Shown here in pieces: positions 28,404 to 42,114 of a DNA stretch of 64,000 nt. The DNA lies in assembly GCA_004764695.1 (NCBI GenBank), contig SMSO01000036.1, positions 2,454,001 to 2,518,000 of the forward strand. The letters are read 5' to 3'. The notes under the pieces were generated by a model that was not told the origin of the DNA, did no database searches, and worked only from the letters and a program-made list of their open reading frames with translations. The number at the start of each line of letters is the position of its first letter. Position 1 is the first letter of the stretch. Position numbers and translations under genes: made by a program. This DNA comes from Schizochytrium sp. TIO01. Its lineage: Eukaryota; Sar; Bigyra; Thraustochytrida; Thraustochytriidae.

Positions 28404-29344
28404 GACCTGCGGCCACACGTAAACACAAGACACGGAGTTATGTGTAGTGGTTTGGTATGGAGGAAACGAGGGTTCTGGTGGGAAGTAAGCAAAAAGGCAC
28501 AGCCGCAGTGAAGAGATGGCATGAAAAGAGGATAGGCAAACCGCGTTAGATAAAAGTCCACCTCGATCTGCGGGTCCCTCTCCCGCGGAAAAGCTTTGGC
28601 GTCCACGACGTCATTGGCGGAGGAGGAGAGGCGAAGCTGGAACAGGGGCCTCTGCCTCTATCCAAACGAGCGGAGTAGATAACCAGGCTATCCTCCGGAG
28701 GAGAAGGGCCTCCCGCGGCGGTGTTTTTTTAGATCGAAATCGAATCGTTTGGATTTGACTTTTAATAGTAAAAAAAAGAGAAGAAAGAAGAAGAAGTCTC
28801 AAGCTTTTACGAGGGCCGGTGCAGGAAGACAAACGCGAGCCGAGCCTGCAAGAAAGCGCCTTGCTCGAGAACCAAGCTACGGGGTTTCCTCTCCTTCCTC
28901 CTGCAACTGCCACTTCTCCTTTCACAAGGTCTCTGCTTCGTGAAAAACTTGTCGTATAGGCGGGTTCGCACACACAAACATCAAAAGCACAGAAGGAGGC
29001 GTGTGCTCTAATATATTACTACTGTCTTATTGCACATCGCGTACGAAAGATCAACTTGTGGTCCTTAGAGTATAAGCAACATCATCTCCTTGTGCAAAAG
29101 GTGAGGTTAGATCAGGTCGAAATCGATATCTTCATCAGATTGCTGTTTGAGGATCTGCGACTTTCAGGAACTGGCCACCAGGGACAACGTGTGGGTGCTC
29201 TGAAACTTGGACTGCGAGCAACGAAAAGACAGCACAGCCCATAATTGGTATAAAGGGTCCCTTTACTCTATAGCAGAGTTATTTCCACACCAAAGCGGAG
29301 TAGTTTCCGTGGACGAAACTGCAAACAGCGAACTTGTAAGGGAA

Positions 29345-32300
29345 ATGACAGCTCCTTCACCAACAGTAGTGATGGCCATCGAGGGAATGATGTGTCAGAA
29401 AAACTGCGGAACAACAATTGAAAATTCACTACGAAAAGTAACACAGCAGTTCAGTCCTGTGGAAGTTATCGTTTCGCACGCCTTGTCCGCAGCGCTTGTT
29501 TATGCACCCAAGCAGCATCTGAACTCGAATCAGCTAACTGAGGCGGTTGAGATGATGGGATTCGATGCTATCGAAGTTGTTGAACCTGAACATGCCCAAG
29601 CTCTGGAATCGCACCTCCGCCGTGATGCAATTAAACGTGGTGCACCTCATTTCCAAATTATGGTCTTCAGAATCGAGGGTATGATGTGTCAAAAGTCCTG
29701 CGGAACAACAGTTGCTAATTCTATTCAATCAGTAGCACCAAATTCTCACGTTGTGGTCTCACATCCCTTAGCTGCAGCACTCGTAGAAGGCTTGGAAATT
29801 CCGAGTGCAACGACGGTTATTGATTCTATCGAAATGGTAGGTTTTGATGCTGAGGAAGTCTTGGATCCTAAGGAAGAAGACAATCTATGCAAGCAACTTC
29901 GTGAAGAGGCGCGTCTTCGTTCCCCGCCACCCCTTCCTCAAAAAAAGGCGCAACGGTTTAGCACAATGATCACAATTGTGCTGAAAATTGAAGGTATGAT
30001 GTGCCAGAAAAATTGTGGATCCACAGTGAAGAGCTCTCTTCAATCGGCAGCACCAAATGCAAACATTATTGTTTCCTTTGCGCTTGGTGCAGCACTGATT
30101 GAGGGAGCTGAGATCCCAAGTGCTCGTGATCTCATTGAGGCCGTAGAGATAGTGGGGTTCGATGCAGAGCAGGTTTTTGATTATCGTGAGCTCGCCGACA
30201 AACTTCTCAATGAGGAACGTCTTCGCCTGCAAGATGATTTGTCTCTGCCTCTCCCCCCGAAACCTCCTAAACCTAGTTCTTTATTTCTTAAGCCACCGCC
30301 GAAGGCTATTGCCCCAGAGAAAGTGGTTGTATTGAAGATTGAAGGCATGATGTGCCAAAAGAACTGTGGAACGACTGTGTCAAATACACTGAAAGCTGCA
30401 GCCCCTGGGGCCATGGTTCTGGTATCATTTCCCCTAGCTGCGGCATCTATTCGAGGGCCTGCGATCCCAGACGCCAAGGTTCTTGTCGAGGCTGTTGAAA
30501 TAGTTGGGTTTGATGCGGAAGAAGTTTCTGCCCCAGTGGAAGCCCAATCTCTAGCGCAACGACTTTCTCTTGAATGCACTTCTGGTACACCCAAGTCTTC
30601 AGCTTCTGACAGCAAGTCTTCACAAATGGTTCTTTTACGAGTTTTGGGAATGGTGTGTCAAAAGAATTGTGGTTCAACTGTAACGACTGCTCTGCAGCGG
30701 GCGGCACCTCGTGCAGACCACGTTATTGTTTCTCATCCTTTAGAGGCAGCCCTAATTGAGGGAGATGACATCCCACCAGCACATGACTTGGTAAGCGCTG
30801 TTGAAATGATTGGATTTGATGCTGAAGTCTTGAACCCGGTTGGCCAAGACGTTCTTATTCAGGGTTTGCGCATGGCGACTCCCTCACTCTCGGCCACCAC
30901 CCAACATGCATTGCCTTTCCAAGAACATAGTTCAAGCAACAAGGATCAGGATGATGAAAATGGTGGAAGCGAAACAGACCGCCTTATGAGCTTCCAACCT
31001 TCTGGACACAGCAGCACTGATTCAATTGCAATTCGTGTAGATCAAGATATTTCTTCGCTTGCACATTGTCGCCGTGCAGAGCTCCAAATTCAAGGAATGA
31101 CTTGTGCAGCATGCGTTGCCAATGTCGAACGGAACGTGGGTAAAGTCAAAGGCGTGCACTCTATCTCGGTAGCCTTGATCGCCGAAAAGGCATCTATCGA
31201 GTACGATCCTGCTGTTGTAAACGGCCAGGCACTTGCAGACGCTGTGAGTGGGCTCGGTTACCGTGGTACGGTGCTTGAGGAGGACCTACCCTTCGGAGAA
31301 GGCCAGGCAGGGATGGGCACTCTTTGTTTGAATGTTTGGAGTTTAGGTGGAGGTCCTGGCTTCGAAGATGTCACGAAGCATCTTCTTGAGCCTTTACGCA
31401 ACACTGAGGGTGTCATTTCTGCAGATGTAGATCTCTGTGGGCTCTTGAAAATCAAACATATTAACGCAGAGATCGGCGCGAGGACACTTTTCGAGACTGT
31501 TGAAAAACTGGGGTACGGCTGTGAGCTTGCTCAGAATGAGACCGCTGCTGCTTCTGATGATATGATGGTGTACTACCGCCAAAAGTTTTTTGGATCGCTT
31601 TTGTTCACTTTCCCAATCATGTTCCTCAGCATGGTTTGCCCTTCAATTCCTTTCCTGATGGGGCCTCTCGAGCATATGGTAGGTCCTCTCGCCGTGAACT
31701 ACCATTCGTTGCTACTTTGGCTTTTGACCACCCCAGTTCAGTTCTACTTCGGTGGTCGCTTCTATAGGAACGCCTTTAACGCCCTACGCCATGGTGCAGC
31801 CAATATGGATGTCCTGGTGGTTCTTGGGACCAGCTCGGCTTACATCTACTCCATGGCCTCCTTAGTCATTGCGATTTGCAAAAATCACGTGTCGAAGGAA
31901 GGCATGCGCGATGCTCATTTCTTTGAGACCTCAGCCATGCTTATTTCTTTTATCTTGCTTGGCAAGTTTTTAGAGTCTTACGCGCGGAGTCGCACCGCAG
32001 ATGCAATTACTGCTCTGATGGATCTCCAGGTAGACTATGCTACGCTTGTTGAATATGATGTAGCGGATGACCCAGCGGAGAAATCGAAGAGTTTATCAAA
32101 CAAAAACCATGCGTCAGAGCGTGAAATTGATGTTCGCCTTGTGCAGATGGGTGATCACTTGAAGGTTTTTCCAGGACAACGAGTTCCTGTTGATGGCGAA
32201 ATCGTCTCAGGATCATCAAGTGTGGACGAATCAATGCTCACGGGCGAGGCAGCACCAGTGCAAAAAACAATTGGGGATAACGTGACTGGTTGCACTGTGA

Positions 32301-33925
32301 ATTGTACAGGCACTTTTATTATGAGGGCAACCCGCGTAGGATCAGATACTGCCTTGGCCCAGATCATGCGCCTTGTGGAGGACGCTCAGACAAGCAAGGC
32401 GCCAATTCAGGAATATGCTGACACAGTGGCAAAATACTTTGTTCCAATTGTTGTGATGGTAGCCTTTCTTACATGGTTCGTGTGGACTTGTATTATCATG
32501 TTCATGAAACCCACACCTTCGTACCTGGAGCATCTCGATCCTTCAGAAGAGTTCGTCTTTGCGTTTAAGTTTGGTGTCGCAGTGCTTGTTGTTTCATGCC
32601 CCTGTGCCCTGGGTCTCGCAACACCGACCGCTGTTATGGTAAGCACTGGAGTTGGTGCACGCCATGGTATCTTGATCAAGGGTGGTGACGCGATCGAGGC
32701 AGCTTCTCGTGTAACTGCAGTCGTATTTGACAAAACAGGTACGCTTACCAAGGGAACTCCTATTGTAACTGAGGTACTTAACACAAGTTCGCCACCTATT
32801 CGTGATGAGGAATTGTTTGCGTACGTTGGAGCTGCTGAGAAAGGGTCTGAGCACCCTGTTGCAAAAGCAATTGTTCAGTTTGCAGAAAGACACTGCTCTC
32901 CTGGTGCATTGGGACAATATATTGCAGATAGTTTTGAGGCTTTACCCGGCTTTGGCATTGATGTGACATTTGCAGACCAGACACGTGTCCTCGTAGGTAA
33001 CCGCAAGCTTATGAAGCGAGCTCAAATCTCTATCCCGTCTGAGCATGAATCCTTCATGAACGAACACGAGGGGCAAGGTACAGTAGTTCTTATCGCTTTT
33101 CAGCCGGCTGTTCGGCCTGGAGACATGCCTTGTTTGGAGGTTGTAGGTGCCATTGCAGTTCAAGACCCTCTTAAAGAAAATGCTGCTTACGTTGTAAGCA
33201 TGCTTAGAATGCTGAATGTGCGTGTATATATGTTATCTGGCGACAACCAGCGCACGGCATCTGCAATGGCTGCCCGCTGTGGAATCGACCCAGACTGTGT
33301 GTTTGGCAATTGTTTGCCCAAACAAAAGTCAACCCGTATTTCACGCCTTCAGAAGGAAGGGTATCGCGTGGCAATGGTTGGTGATGGTATTAATGACTCG
33401 CCAGCTCTGACCTTGGCCGATTTGGGTGTGGCTGTTGGTGCTGGCACAGATATTGCCATGAAATCAGCCGACGCAGTTCTTATTCGCTCGAACCTGCTTG
33501 ATGTTGCTGTTCTACTGGATATGGCCCGCGCTACGATTTCTCGCATCCGTCTGAACTTTTTCTTTTCTTTCATCTATAACCTTTTGTGCATTCCGCTTGC
33601 AGCTGGTTTGATGTATCCTTGGTTTCATGTGCGCCTGCCGCCAGCACTTGCTGGTTTCATGATGGCAATGTCATCTGTCTCGGTGGTGTGTTCCTCCCTG
33701 CTTCTTCGCCGTTATCGCCCGCCTCGATTCATGAATGTAGACTTTGATCTTTCAAGTGATACGATGAAGTTTCGCACGCAGCAGCCCCGTTCTTCGGTTG
33801 AAATGATTGACTACAATCTGAACAGACTGCGCCCAGGTCACGGCATCCGGTATGACAAGATTCAGCCGTCCAGCGAATCGGAGAATGACAGCCTCGAATC
33901 AGATGATGAGCCGTTGCGATACTAA
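29345..33925 (+). CDS. Copper-transporting P1B-type ATPase with seven HMA-like repeats
   Basis: This is an ATP-driven copper pump of the ATP7/Ccc2 family, expected in the secretory pathway or plasma membrane. The first ATG is at 29345; the open frame extends upstream only through a TTG, giving 1526 aa. Metal-binding repeats occupy about the first 730 residues. Repeats 1-5 carry G-M-[MV]-C-Q-K-[NS]-C-G with cysteines at 17/21, 115/119, 220/224, 337/341 and 438/442, which is CxxxC spacing. Repeat 6 is canonical, MTCAAC (Cys587, Cys590). Repeat 7 has lost its cysteine pair. The pump core is complete: TGEA, CPC at 1085-1087, phosphorylated Asp1129 in [17 protein letters not shown] and [10 protein letters not shown]. 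The YN and MxxSS residues in the last two helices match the Cu(I)-specific P1B-1 subgroup. No intron is needed. Confidence 0.95.
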
Positions 33926-35795: not shown

Positions 35796-36128
35796 TGCGA
35801 CTAATCATCTGAGAAAGGATGGAGGTAGGTGCTTGCTGGGTTGTTTGTTGCTGTTTGTTGCTGTTGTTGCGGATATTATTAATAATATTGGCGATGACAG
35901 TAAATGAAAGATAAATAATAATATGGAAAGAAAACAAATGATATTCATTCAATATTTAATTTCGTTGTTCTTCCACAGGAAAGGGCAAGGCAAAGCCAAG
36001 TCTGCGGAGGCGCAGAGGAAGAGCAGGGACGCTCTTGACAGACCTCGACGGCGGCGCGTACGCACGATCTGGACAGGCCGGCCTTCTATCGCTTCCTTCC
36101 TTCCGGCTCCCTCCCTCTCTCCTCCGCC

Positions 36129-38580
36129 ATGGCGGACGAGGAGTCCCACATGCCTGCCTCCACGGAGGCCATCTCCCTAGAGGCCTCCACGCACAACCCG
36201 TCCTCCGACGATGCCGACGACGCACCCCTCGCTGGCATCGAGGATGCCGACGACCGCCCCCGCGACGACGATGACCTCGAGGAGCCCTCCGCCGGCACCG
36301 ACAACCGCTGGCACGACGTCCTCGGCGGCGGCACCGTCATGCGACGCACGGTAAGCCCGGGTTCGGGCCCGAGTCCGGAGTACAAATGTGCAGCATACGT
36401 GCACTACGTTGCACGCATTCAAGGTCACGAGGACACGTATGAGAATACTCGGGACCTTGGAGAAGATCCTGTGGAGGTGGTGATTGGGGACAATATTATG
36501 GAGACCGTGGTGCCGGGTCTGATGTTGGGTATTAGATTGATGAAAGAAGGCGAGATTGCGGACATAAAGGTTAACCATCGGTTTGGGTATGCCGACCAAG
36601 GGTTCAAGGACTTGGTTGGTCCGAATGAAGATATTGAGTTCAGAGTAGAACTGGTCCGGGTGGGCGAAAGGGAGAAAGAACCGGTGGAGATGGACCCCCA
36701 GGAACTTATTCATCATGTGCGCAAGCGCAAGGAGAGGGGAAATGCGTTCTTCGCGCTCGATCGCATCGATAAGGCGTTGCAATGCTATCAAGGATGGACT
36801 CAAGAGGAGTGAGTCTCACCTACCGCCAGCACCACAACCTGGGGAAGAACCGCCCCCGGAGCCGGAACATGACCCGTACAACGATAACCCAGAACTCATC
36901 AAACTGCGAGCTCAGTGTGCAGGAAACGCCGCTGCATGTTTCGAGAAACTCAAGAAGTGGAAGGAGGCAGGAGATGCATGCGTTGCAGCGCTCGCACTTG
37001 ACCCGCAGAACCTCAAGTATCTCCTTCGCGCGGCAAATGTATCAACCATGCGGGGAAACTTCGAGGAGGCCAAGGCCTGCCTCCACACAGCTAAACTCGT
37101 GTACCCGGATAATCCGTCTGTATCCGTTGCAGTGCGCAAGTTTAAGTCTCATGTCAGTGCTTATAAGGAGAAGGAGAAGGAAGCATACGGTGGCTTCCTT
37201 CACCAGTCGGGAGCTTCCTCGTCATCATCCTCATCGTCTTCTGCACAAGCTGCAGAAACAACAACAACGCCCTCCACACGGGCAACATCTTCATCATCTT
37301 CAGCATTCGCCTCTTCGCCTCGTACAACAGGATCTTCATCGTCTTCATCCTCCTCTTCAATGTCTGCTTCGCCACAACAGTATCAATCAGGAATAAATGA
37401 AAGTGTGCCGCACGAGTCTGGATCTTCAGGCGTAGGATCCTCATCCTCAATATCTGGTTCGTCTTCTTCAGTAGCGTCTGGATCTGCTGCTGGATCACCT
37501 GCTTCGAGCACAGACTCTCCAGCCGCTTCTGATGACCCTCATCCCGTGGCAGCTGGGGAGCCAACATCTGGCACGCACAAAAGAAGACGTCGCATGAGCA
37601 CTCAGCAGCGTCTCTTCAACCTCATGGTCCTTCTTGCTCCGACTTTAGTTGCTGTTCTTGCATTTGTGGTTATTCTTCCTTCTCAGGCTACCGCAGCACC
37701 AGTTCTGGCAAAAGAAACAAACCTTATGGGGGCATGGGCAAATGAGTCTAAAGACCTCGCTCAAAAAATTCTGCGTGATGCATCTTTGGACTCTCTAACT
37801 TGCGAGGGAAGGCAGCAACGAGGATCCTGCTGTATCTGCCAAAATATTATGCAGCAGGCTGCAATGCGCCAAGAAAAGGCCAAGAATGCCTACCCGGAGC
37901 GCTCTGTGCAGGTGGGTTTTCGTCAGGACGGAAAGCGCTTTTTGCCATTCCACCTCTCAGAAGAGGTTGGACTCACCATTTTAGAGCGCATTTGCGGTCG
38001 CTTCCCAGTAGATATCCCGGCTGATCACCCAGATATGGATGAAGCTAAGAGGGCTTCTAACAAGGCTTGCCATGCCTTCCTGGACAGCTTTCACGATGAC
38101 TTCCTCAAAGTGTTGACAACGCCATTTCCAGATGAAGCATCTTTGATCAAACGAGCCTGTTCTGAGGTTATTGGGGTTTGCCCAGTGCGCACACATAAGT
38201 GGTATGAAACAATTCGTGAACTTGGGTTTGCATACATGAACATGCCGTGTACTGTTTGCACTGGCGTAAGTAATTTGCTCACTGAGACAAAGCAGAACAC
38301 CGATCTCGATACTCTTTTGGCTTTGCTCCGGGCCCCTTCATCGATGTGTGCTCAGTTGAGGGTAAATATTCCAGCACAGGAAACAAGGGTTTCCCAAGTG
38401 GCCAGTGTGATTGGCGATGCATGCATTGATTTGATCTACGAAAACCGCGCTGTGATCAAGGAGATTCTGAAAGGCGACAACTCTACGGAGGGTAGCTCAT
38501 CTTCCTGTCCTCGTGAGTTAAATATTCAGCTTTGTGCTGCGCACTGCCCTGCCAGTGTTCTTGAAATGGCTGAAATATAA
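36129..38580 (+). CDS. FKBP-TPR protein fused through a membrane segment to two saposin-B-like domains (one frameshift)
   Basis: The first frame (36129-36812) encodes an acidic N-terminus, a divergent FKBP domain (about residues 65-190) and the start of a TPR helix ending KALQCYQ. The second frame (readable from about 36790 to 38580) continues that helix as DGLKRSE and then gives further TPR helices (AGNAAACFEKLKKWKEA, LRAANVSTMRGNFEEA). One extra base near 36790 separates the frames, and no GT..AG intron of the right length fits. After the TPRs come a Ser-rich linker, a membrane segment (about 37617-37680) and a Cys-rich tail. That tail has two saposin-B-type patterns: CCICQ..KACHAFLDSF..RACSEVIGVC and CTVC..DACIDLIYEN..CPRELNIQLC. 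The FKBP site is degenerate (YENTRD where FDSSRD is usual), as in non-canonical FKBP38. It probably spans the ER membrane with the saposin part luminal; that is inference. Confidence 0.75.
36780..36815 (+). other. Apparent +1 frameshift inside the FKBP fusion gene
   Basis: Frame 0 reads ..CYQ then a short tail to TGA at 36810-36812. Frame +1 picks up DGLKRSE without loss of TPR continuity. Removing one G in CAAGGATGG would join them. A GTGAGT lies at 36809, but downstream AG sites at 36829, 36847, 36861, 36892, 36910 and 36915 do not give the required intron length of 3n+1. Confidence 0.7.
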
Positions 38581-39381
38581 TCAGCATGTAACAACATCAA
38601 TAACATCAACAGCCAATACCACATATTTCGCCATCATGGACGAGATGTAGCTGGGGATGACGCTACTTTCGTTGTGTTGGGTGCTAAATGCTTCAACTTT
38701 TACCTTTCAACTCGTATATTTTACATCATTTAAAAACAGAAGAAAGAAAAATGGCAGAAAAGAAGAGACCTCATTCGAATCGGATTGTTAGCTTTGGGGT
38801 TTTGTTTGGTGACGGACTCGGTCGGTTTGCCTGCCTTTTTTCCCTTTCTTTTTTCACGCCCGTAACAACACGAAGAAGCAAGGATCAAGACGTTGATTAG
38901 CGGATATGAACCAAGGATTTGCTTGTCACTTTGACACAAATAGTTCTGGCTCAAACTTTGGCAAGAACAAGGAAAAGAGAAGAAGAAGAAGAAGAAGGAA
39001 AAAAAAAAAAGAGGTTTCTCCTGTATTAAGCATACCTTCATTCATCCGCGTGGTGGCGCCACGAAATTTAGCTTGAATAGCAAGAGAGAAAAAGAAAAGA
39101 AAAGAAAGAAAAGAAAAGATTAATATCGCCTCAAACAACGAAGTTGGCAGCCGCAAAATAAGCACTGGAATGTGGAAGTTGAGACGCTGCATGCACATAC
39201 AAACGTTGCAGCAAAGCTCGTATAACCTGCGCCTATTTCTATATTCTTGGTATTCATAACTTTAAACATAAAGTTCTATTGCTACCCTTTTACTAATATG
39301 CAAATTTGCTCAATCGCCCCCCGCCCCCCCTTATCGTTGTTGTGTTTCTACGTCATGCTGTGTTTGTACACCAAGAAAGAT
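38581..39381. other. Intergenic region between convergent genes
   Basis: It holds the 3' flanks of the FKBP fusion and of QTRT1, with A/G-rich runs near 38970-39015 and 39085-39118. No gene is seen. Confidence 0.55.
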
Positions 39382-40788
39382 TCATTCAGTTTCTTGGGTC
39401 ACCTCCTCTACCTTTGCCTCTGCTTCTGCGCCCCGGACCTCTCGCTCTAAATCTTGATCAAGTTTAATCCCGGCAGCGTCCAAGGCCTCGCAGACCCACA
39501 AAGGTACCTTATCTCCAGTGAATTGGTTACGCAAGAATTCGTTGACAAACGCCGGGTACCGGTCCTCCAGGATAGCCTTCCGCATCTTGCGAACAAGCTG
39601 TAAAAGATACACCAAATTGTGATGCGTGACAATGCTTGCAACGCCATTATCTGCGGCCTGCTTAAAGAGAAAGTGCAAACTAGCACGTGAAAAAGCGGGA
39701 AAACTAGCCCCTTCCTTTGCCGGGCGACAAGCCTGGCAAGGACAATTCGGCGAGATTGGGCTAGCATCCGAAGCGTACTTGGCATGTTTGAGTTTCATGA
39801 GCCCAAAGTCCGTGAACGCAGTGCCAAACCGGGCCGTGCGAGTTCCATACACAGAGTCATACATGTCAACACCAAGTGCGCTGCAGACAACAATATCTAG
39901 AGGATGTCCCACGCCCATGAGGTAACGCGGCTTATGCGTCGGCAGATGGCGGCAGCAGACATCAACAACGCGCCAGAACTGGTCTTTGGACTCTCCTCCA
40001 GCAAGGCCTCCAATGGCGTATCCTGGAATATCTTCATCACGTTTGGCCATCTCGGCCAAGCATCGCTCGCGAAGACCGCCTGGAGCCACATCCAGACCAC
40101 CCTGGACGATTGCGAAAAGGTTTTGATGCTGAGGTCCGCTCTTGTAGCCATTCTTGGCATCCTCCTCACCACCACGTTTATGTTCCTTAATACAGCGGTC
40201 AAGCCATCGAACTGTGCGGTCCGTAGCCTCTGCAAAGCGCTGATCGTCCACAGTACAAGAGTGGATGACATCGTCAAGCATCATCACAATATCTGACCCG
40301 ATTCGATGCTGCGTGCGAATGGACTCTTCTGGCGTGAGCATGAGTTGAGTTCCGTCGGAGGGAGACTGAAAGTTTACACCTTCTTCAGTAATCTGCGCGA
40401 GACGCAGCAGCGAGACCATTTGGAATCCACCAGAATCCGTCAAGATGTTACCATTCCAGTTCATGAATTTGTGAAGACCTCCCATACGGCGCAAGCGGTC
40501 CGCACCGGGTTGGTTGGCGAGGTGGTAGGTGTTGCCGAGAAGGATTTGACAGGAGATGGGATCATCCCGCATCTCCTGCGTTGTGATGCCTTTGATCGTG
40601 CCCTTGGTGCCCACGGGCTGGAAAACCGGCGTCGCCACAGGTCCATGAGGCAGACGTAGCGTCAAGGCGCGGGCCCTGCCGCACGTGCTCTCTACGCAGA
40701 CGCTTAGAGCAGGTCCACACACAACGAAGCCATCGTCACCGGAGGCAGTGGAGACCTCTACCGCGGGCGTGCCATCGATCTGCGCCAT
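39382..40788 (-). CDS. QTRT1: Queuine tRNA-ribosyltransferase catalytic subunit 1
   Basis: The enzyme swaps guanine for queuine at the wobble position (34) of tRNAs with GUN anticodons, usually as a dimer with QTRT2. The 468-aa protein carries the TGT barrel with TDSGGFQM (general Asp), MLDDVIHS, FAIVQGGLD and IGGLAGGES, then KPRYLMGVGHPLD and the nucleophile Asp in DMYDSVYGTRTARFG. The zinc site CxCxxC (CPCQAC) is followed by an extended loop and His in VTHHN. Eukaryotic QTRT1 proteins are about 400 aa; the extra length is about 40 residues at the N-terminus and an acidic tail. The substrate queuine must come from food or symbionts, since eukaryotes do not make it. The start Met at 40788 begins MAQIDG. 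The frame is uninterrupted. Confidence 0.95.
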   Translation of the reverse strand: MAQIDGTPAVEVSTASGDDGFVVCGPALSVCVESTCGRARALTLRLPHGPVATPVFQPVGTKGTIKGITTQEMRDDPISCQILLGNTYHLANQPGADRLRRMGGLHKFMNWNGNILTDSGGFQMVSLLRLAQITEEGVNFQSPSDGTQLMLTPEESIRTQHRIGSDIVMMLDDVIHSCTVDDQRFAEATDRTVRWLDRCIKEHKRGGEEDAKNGYKSGPQHQNLFAIVQGGLDVAPGGLRERCLAEMAKRDEDIPGYAIGGLAGGESKDQFWRVVDVCCRHLPTHKPRYLMGVGHPLDIVVCSALGVDMYDSVYGTRTARFGTAFTDFGLMKLKHAKYASDASPISPNCPCQACRPAKEGASFPAFSRASLHFLFKQAADNGVASIVTHHNLVYLLQLVRKMRKAILEDRYPAFVNEFLRNQFTGDKVPLWVCEALDAAGIKLDQDLEREVRGAEAEAKVEEVTQETE

Positions 40789-42114
40789 GGTCTTGGCAAC
40801 GGGGTCGATGCAGACGGATGGATGTCAGTGGCGCGAGAGAGCGAGAGAAGAGCTCTCTTCCTTTGAAGTGAGCGAGCCGCTTGCTGAGAGGAGACGTGCG
40901 CGGGTCCCGGCTTTCAACGGGGAGCTGAACGCAAGCGCCGGTAGGAAGACGGCACGCGAAGGAGCGCGCCACGCCCCGCAGATTGCTTCTTTGGCGCGAA
41001 CTTTTAATGTCGATCGTTGTCCGAATCCCAATAATATGTGAGGGAATGGAACATCCAAAAACAAGCAAGCAAATACAACACAAAATATGCAAAGTACCCG
41101 CCTTCTTCTAACTAACAGCTGAGACTCCCATGTGAAGAAGATTGCGTCTTCAAGATAATCGAGGCTTCGGCATGAACTCCAGACAAGACATTGGCCATGA
41201 GCTGCTCAGCCTCGATGAGGTTGACAATTTTTAGTTGGCGGTCGTGGGGAAGCATTGGTCGAAACCAGTGCGTTTGTGGTGGGCTGAGGACGAAACCTGT
41301 GGCTCGAGAGGGGACCTGAAACCTTTGGCGAATTATGCAGAACAGCAAATCAGTTCTGGAGATGCATTCAGAGTATGCCGACTTTAGAGCACGAGGTTTG
41401 TTTGAGGAGGGTATCGGGAAATCTGTAGTCGAGTCGCAGTTTATGATCAGAGCACGCACATCAATCAAGCCGAAGCTTGCTTCGAACTTCTGGCTGAGAA
41501 TCGAGCTCGAGCACAATGCGCAGACTGTCTGGATAATCTAGCTGGCGTGGCGGATAAGAGAAAACCTCAGCTCAGGAGAGGTCACTCTCGAACTTGGAGT
41601 GACTTGTTTCGCGTGGCGTGCCTCTAGACACTTATTTCTTCAGCTGGGAACCCTTTCAGCTCCTCGCCACCTTTCAGAACTCATACACGGTTTGCATATT
41701 CGAGGCAGCTCCGGCAATGGTCCTCGTGGAGGTCTTCACTCGCTACGCAAAGTAGTGGTCAGTATCGATCTTGATTGATTGCGATGCAGTATCGCATCCC
41801 ACAGATTCCTAAACATTCCTCGTAGGATTGCCTCGAAGAAAGAAGTCACGCCGCCTTCAGTCAGAATGGAAGTGGCCAACCCCCACGCCGAGGATGCCTC
41901 CGGCCCGTATTCAACTTGCCAGCCTCCGCAGGCAATCCCGCCTGATCGACCGAATATATATATCCAAGTTGTCAACTTCTCCGTAAGACCTTTGACGTAA
42001 GAACTGTGCTCTCGGTACCTAGAAAGGTATACTATTATTATTATCATCTTCAATTTATTCTTAATCCTCATTATCACAACGATTAAACGACGTTATGAAA
42101 AATCAAACATTAAC

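Follow-up and report, generated by a model that had tools for sequence, protein, structure and literature searches.

The locus described here raises the question of whether a single gene of Schizochytrium sp. TIO01 joins an FKBP-TPR immunophilin across a membrane to a cysteine-rich tail of the canopy or saposin type. The window, which is the whole stretch of DNA that was analyzed, comprises 64,000 nucleotides, and the gene is located on its plus strand at positions 36129-38580. The initial annotation had assigned the same limits, and both the ATG at 36129, which is embedded in GCCATGG, and the stop codon at 38578-38580 were confirmed.

Gene layout and parts

The encoded protein has an acidic N-terminus, which is followed in this order by a divergent FKBP domain, three TPRs, a linker rich in Ser, the basic patch KRRRR, one predicted membrane helix, and a tail of 294 residues. 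The individual parts and the evidence for them are as follows:

36129..36812, plus strand: first frame with the acidic N-terminus, the FKBP domain, and TPR1 to about residue 221; TGA stop at 36810-36812
36387..36656 (residues 87-176), plus strand: FKBP domain with degenerate pocket; PF00254, AtFKBP42
36789..36812, plus strand: zone of the one-nucleotide frame change; overlapping open frames, codon score, no sensible intron
36793..37218, plus strand: remainder of TPR1, TPR2-3, and closing helix; TPR_19, TPR_2, Cyp40, FKBP8
37219..37593, plus strand: Ser/Ala/Thr-rich linker with the basic patch KRRRR (37579-37593) as its 3' end; reading frame
37621..37677, plus strand: predicted single membrane helix; hydropathy of 2.95 over 19 residues
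37828..38181, plus strand: putative luminal module 1, CNPY-like, from first to last pattern cysteine; DUF3456 with E = 0.0014, below the cut-off, and cysteine spacing
38248..38535, plus strand: putative luminal module 2 with saposin-type spacing; cysteine spacing only, no Pfam match
38578..38580, plus strand: stop codon; end of the open frame

The proposal of an FKBP-TPR protein with a membrane helix and two cysteine modules is borne out by profiles, hydropathy, and cysteine spacing, respectively. A kinship with CNPY proteins is marginal and applies to module 1 only, and a kinship of module 2 was not supported. The combination of FKBP-TPR, membrane helix, and canopy-like tail is a real, unusual architecture composed of known parts. 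A description of such a domain order in one gene was not found in the literature; among the matches listed for FKBP or immunophilin together with saposin, no paper named saposin, which does not imply absence from print.

The gene is preceded by a frame of 1573 aa (29204-33922), which by eye reads as a P-type ATPase of the copper type whose N-terminus contains several repeated metal-binding segments. On the minus strand, a frame resembling queuine tRNA-ribosyltransferase by eye is located at 39385-40824.

FKBP domain and TPR clamp

In a profile search, the FKBP domain was recognized as FKBP_C (PF00254) at residues 87-176 with E = 6.3e-12. When the FKBP piece was compared with sequences in the PDB, AtFKBP42 (2if4, E = 1.9e-11) and wheat FKBPs were leading among the best 60 of 143 matches (E up to 1). 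The alignment with wheat FKBP (3jym) revealed that FD of the motif FDSSRD is replaced by YE and that the tryptophan following VIKG is replaced by leucine. The isomerase activity of this domain is thus likely weak or absent.

TPR profiles match on either side of the frame break described below; the part from 36793 onwards is matched by TPR_19 (4.2e-06) and TPR_2 (1.9e-05). Among the best 60 of 75 PDB matches of the TPR2-3 piece, the leading ones are cyclophilin 40 (Cyp40, 1.2e-11), FKBP8 (about 1e-7), SPAG1, and AtFKBP42. Nine clamp positions of FKBP8, whose residue numbers correspond to the chain numbers plus 90, were taken from the account given in PMC5344419. Five of these are identical in the present protein (N229, N277, N305, K307, R311), one is conservatively replaced (R225 by K), and three are changed (K273 to Q, N276 to G, K314 to N), with the two first-frame positions having been placed by the terminal coordinates of the alignment with 5mgx, where the residues themselves are not printed. 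For FKBP8, it has been reported that an exchange of K307 for glutamate abolished binding of yeast Hsp90 (PMC5344419). The comparison with FKBP8 thus supports a putative chaperone-type carboxylate clamp in the TPR domain. A comparison of the TPR and FKBP pieces with a collection of viral contigs revealed no confirmed relative, which says nothing on other eukaryotes.

Frame change within TPR1

The frame encoding the FKBP domain and TPR1 (36129-36812) and the frame encoding TPR2-3, linker, helix, and tail (open at 36649-38580) are one nucleotide apart. Up to residue 221, the alignment with AtFKBP42 tracks the first frame. From 36793 onwards, the second frame (DGLKRSES...) reads by eye as a continuation of the TPR1 helix when compared with the TPR consensus. 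Nine further long frames of the window, comprising 7,147 codons, served to train a codon score, which was applied in segments of 240 bases. The first frame scored best in the segments 36060-36779, and the second frame scored best in the segments covering 36780-37259 and 37500-38699. A reverse frame was best in three segments of the linker (37140-37619) and barely best in the segment holding the break (36660-36899).

As introns bridging the frame break, 174 GT/GC-AG candidates whose length is 1 modulo 3 were considered. These were rejected, as conserved FKBP/TPR sequence would be lost to varying degrees; the sole candidate with a GTGAGT donor (36809-37157) would remove TPR2-3. A paralog or second copy for checking the break was not found in the own genome assembly (64 Mb, 37 contigs). 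The PUFA-synthase gene of thraustochytrids is known as one continuous frame. In the present assembly, this gene (TIGR02813; best of 20 matches listed on contig C4) changes frame at a site where both frames are open (L033 4040-4551). Since there is no sensible intron and since this second gene shifts frame likewise, an assembly indel is the likeliest cause of both frame changes.

It is improbable that the organism itself has the frame change near 36,790, be it as a sign of a pseudogene or of programmed frameshifting. The two frames do differ by one nucleotide, and no second copy was found in the genome to contradict a real shift, but the coding score remains positive before and after the break, the 1.8 kb 3' of it are free of stop codons, and the similar passage between frames in the PUFA-synthase gene points to assembly indels. 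Irrespective of the cause, the unusual junction between TPR2-3 and the tail is independent of the break because a single open frame runs from TPR2-3 through the linker and the helix into the tail.

The PUFA synthase of this genome is of the PfaA type and contains repeated acyl-carrier-like text. Together with the FKBP-TPR-cyclophilin-like frame mentioned below, it is in keeping with a stramenopile, probably a thraustochytrid.

Continuity across the linker

Within the second frame, the TPR part runs without a stop codon of its own up to 38578, and the region 37151-37800 contains no GTRAG donor. Graded by the Kozak rule, the context of the ATG at 36129 is strong and that of a further ATG at 37594 (CGTCGCATGA) is weak. 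All this argues against a division of the locus into two genes, in which an FKBP-TPR gene would be followed by a separate gene for a secreted CNPY/saposin-like protein starting from ATG 37594, with the hydrophobic stretch acting as a cleaved signal peptide. Such a division would agree with the hydrophobic stretch after ATG 37594, which ends in SQATA and by eye resembles a signal peptide, with an AATAAA at 37392, and with the codon score of the linker, which is higher in a reverse frame than in the frame of the gene. In the latter frame, however, the linker reads as Ser/Ala/Thr/Gly/Pro, and two separate genes are considered unlikely.

Predicted membrane helix and topology

Following KRRRR, a segment of 19 residues at 37621-37677 has a mean hydropathy of 2.95; more than 19 residues off the helix, no other such segment exceeds 1.0 within the scored stretch of 595 residues from 36793 on. 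About 300 residues lie C-terminal of this helix in the same frame, and the helix is thus not located at or near the C-terminus.

According to the positive-inside rule, the basic side of a membrane helix faces the cytosol. Because KRRRR precedes the single helix, the N-terminal half of the protein should be cytosolic. The tail of 294 aa contains 15 cysteines, as compared to 2 in the FKBP piece of 221 aa and 4 in the TPR2-linker piece of 267 aa, and two sequons are present beyond the helix. Both the cysteines and the sequons of the tail are as expected of an oxidizing compartment. An ER retrieval signal was not seen at the C-terminus of the protein.

Canopy- and saposin-like features of the tail

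The cysteines of module 1 are spaced C-x2-C-x51-C-x24-C-x29-C-x6-C, in agreement with the six-cysteine saposin-type pattern, and those of module 2 are spaced C-x2-C-x29-C-x24-C-x27-C-x8-C. A loose saposin/canopy cysteine pattern matches twice in the tail; among 20,000 shuffles of the tail, none had two matches and 890 had one, although this test overstates the case because the pattern was devised after the sequence had been seen.

The initial annotation had regarded both modules as saposin-B-like and had suggested a profile check for SapB and CNPY. This check yielded DUF3456 for module 1 with E = 0.0014 and 19.5 bits, which is 1.6 bits under the cut-off of 21.1, so that the CNPY part of the proposal holds marginally; its SapB part found no support by profile, as SapB_1 and SapB_2 were absent from the Pfam matches (E up to 10) of every slice. 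SapB_2 also gave 0 matches in the own genome, with the controls likewise remaining without a match. The match of module 1 to DUF3456 consists of two stretches, the best of which covers positions 2-62 of the profile, and positions 104-150 were matched at E = 0.05 in a shorter slice. DUF3456 was listed for three of the seven slices holding all or part of module 1, and no DUF3456 match was listed for the tail in full (328 aa), the second frame in full (643 aa), or two half-module slices. When the own genome was searched with this profile, a single place came up, and it is not module 1.

Apart from this gene, a frame with a weak DUF3456 match of 20.7 bits (cut-off 21.1) is located at L003 1288-1704 (G000:C31) and may belong, as one exon, to another canopy gene; the remainder of a canopy gene was not recognized around it.

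Module 2 matches no Pfam profile and is defined by its cysteine spacing only. An alignment of modules 1 and 2 is no better than those of shuffled sequences, which reached its score in 247 of 2,000 cases, and a duplication is thus not supported. Matches of melittin to module 1 (E 0.06 to 0.24) were taken as chance, and an NCBIfam search gave only weak or off-family matches. Neither the whole tail nor module 1 had a match among the sequences of solved structures at E up to 10. Structure models were poor; one had a mean pLDDT of 37.8, and that of module 1, which is mostly helical, had a mean pLDDT of 54.3 and remained without a match in a fold search (E up to 0.001). Relatives of the tail among viral contigs and of the TPR-tail part among prokaryote genome contigs were not confirmed, which says nothing on other eukaryotes.

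Both modules could also be plain saposin-like lipid binders on the same chain that are not kin to canopy proteins. In this case, a cytosolic chaperone platform would be tethered to a lipid-handling unit. The spacing between the third and fourth cysteine is 24 in both modules, and this spacing is probably longer in CNPY proteins, which would favor plain saposin-like domains; on the other hand, DUF3456 is the sole family credibly matching module 1, and a SapB model was not listed for any slice. Studies on CNPY4 can be cited on both sides, because this protein is described as altering membrane sterols, but the purified protein bound none of the sterols tested according to the same account (PMC9065090). 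In sum, plain saposin-like modules are a possible explanation of the tail, but a less probable one than a canopy-like module 1.

Comparison with known systems

The cytosolic half and the membrane helix are similar to FKBP38/FKBP8 of animals, for which an acidic N-terminus, a degenerate FKBP domain, and three TPRs with an Hsp90 carboxylate clamp, followed by a membrane helix, have been described (PMC5344419). In contrast to FKBP8, which stops at the membrane region, the present protein continues with about 300 cysteine-rich residues. To our knowledge, FKBP42 (TWISTED DWARF1) of plants has no luminal domain either. FKBP42 heads the PDB matches listed for the FKBP piece (2if4, E = 1.9e-11) and is likewise a membrane-attached Hsp90 co-chaperone, but it is described with an in-plane membrane anchor (PMC12484997).

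The canopy proteins CNPY1-5 (DUF3456) are connected to the present protein by the profile match of module 1, which comprises two stretches and is below the cut-off. Canopy proteins are known as soluble proteins of the ER and, unlike the present protein, are not known to be fused to FKBP-TPR. A further common feature is the cysteine-rich, saposin-like character of the family, whose canopy members are described as ER-resident (PMC9065090).

Single-celled eukaryotes also have FCBPs (FKBP-3TPR-cyclophilin), in which FKBP-3TPR is joined to an additional folding module; apicomplexans, oomycetes, ciliates, and diatoms are among the groups for which this type has been described (PMC6316441). Instead of a luminal tail, FCBPs carry a second PPIase. 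The own genome contains a frame of 493 aa (L005 1360-2838; G000:C24) with the order FKBP-TPR-cyclophilin, the cyclophilin part being recognized by eye, which resembles such a dual-family immunophilin.

Proposed function

With moderate confidence, the protein is best read as a type II membrane co-chaperone of the FKBP38/FKBP42 type, probably of the ER, with CNPY-like modules extending into the lumen. At the cytosolic side, Hsp70 or Hsp90 would dock with its EVD-type tail to the TPR clamp, while membrane-protein clients would be contacted by the FKBP domain. The single helix would cross the membrane, and the luminal half with one CNPY-like and one saposin-like module may engage lipids, the luminal Hsp90, or those parts of the clients that face the lumen. 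From the sequence we infer one transcript, the ER location, the topology, chaperone binding, the type of client, and the function.

FKBP38 and FKBP42 are described as membrane-attached partners of Hsp90 that work on ABC transporters and channels (PMC12484997), and CNPY3 as a co-chaperone of GRP94 (PMC12651230). The open frames of the genome include potential chaperone partners, namely an Hsp70 ending in VEEVD, an Hsp70 ending in HDEL, an Hsp90 ending in MESVD, and an ER-type Hsp90 ending in KLEL.

The Hsp90 frame without a signal peptide (L022; G000:C13:2825898-2827403) thus has MESVD at its C-terminus instead of the usual MEEVD. K314 of FKBP8, a reported contact of the glutamate in this motif, corresponds to asparagine in the present TPR domain.

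The simplest reading would be that of an ER membrane co-chaperone handling both faces of membrane proteins. It is conceivable, but doubtful, that the one chain also couples cytosolic Hsp70/Hsp90, via the TPR clamp, with luminal GRP94, via the CNPY-like module, and thereby brings both faces of a client onto one scaffold. As a rule, the folding of membrane proteins in the cytosol and their folding in the lumen are regarded as two distinct systems. If true, the co-chaperone platform with its canopy-like module would be a natural link between these systems, and a canopy domain tied to a known chaperone partner would hint at the function of canopy proteins.
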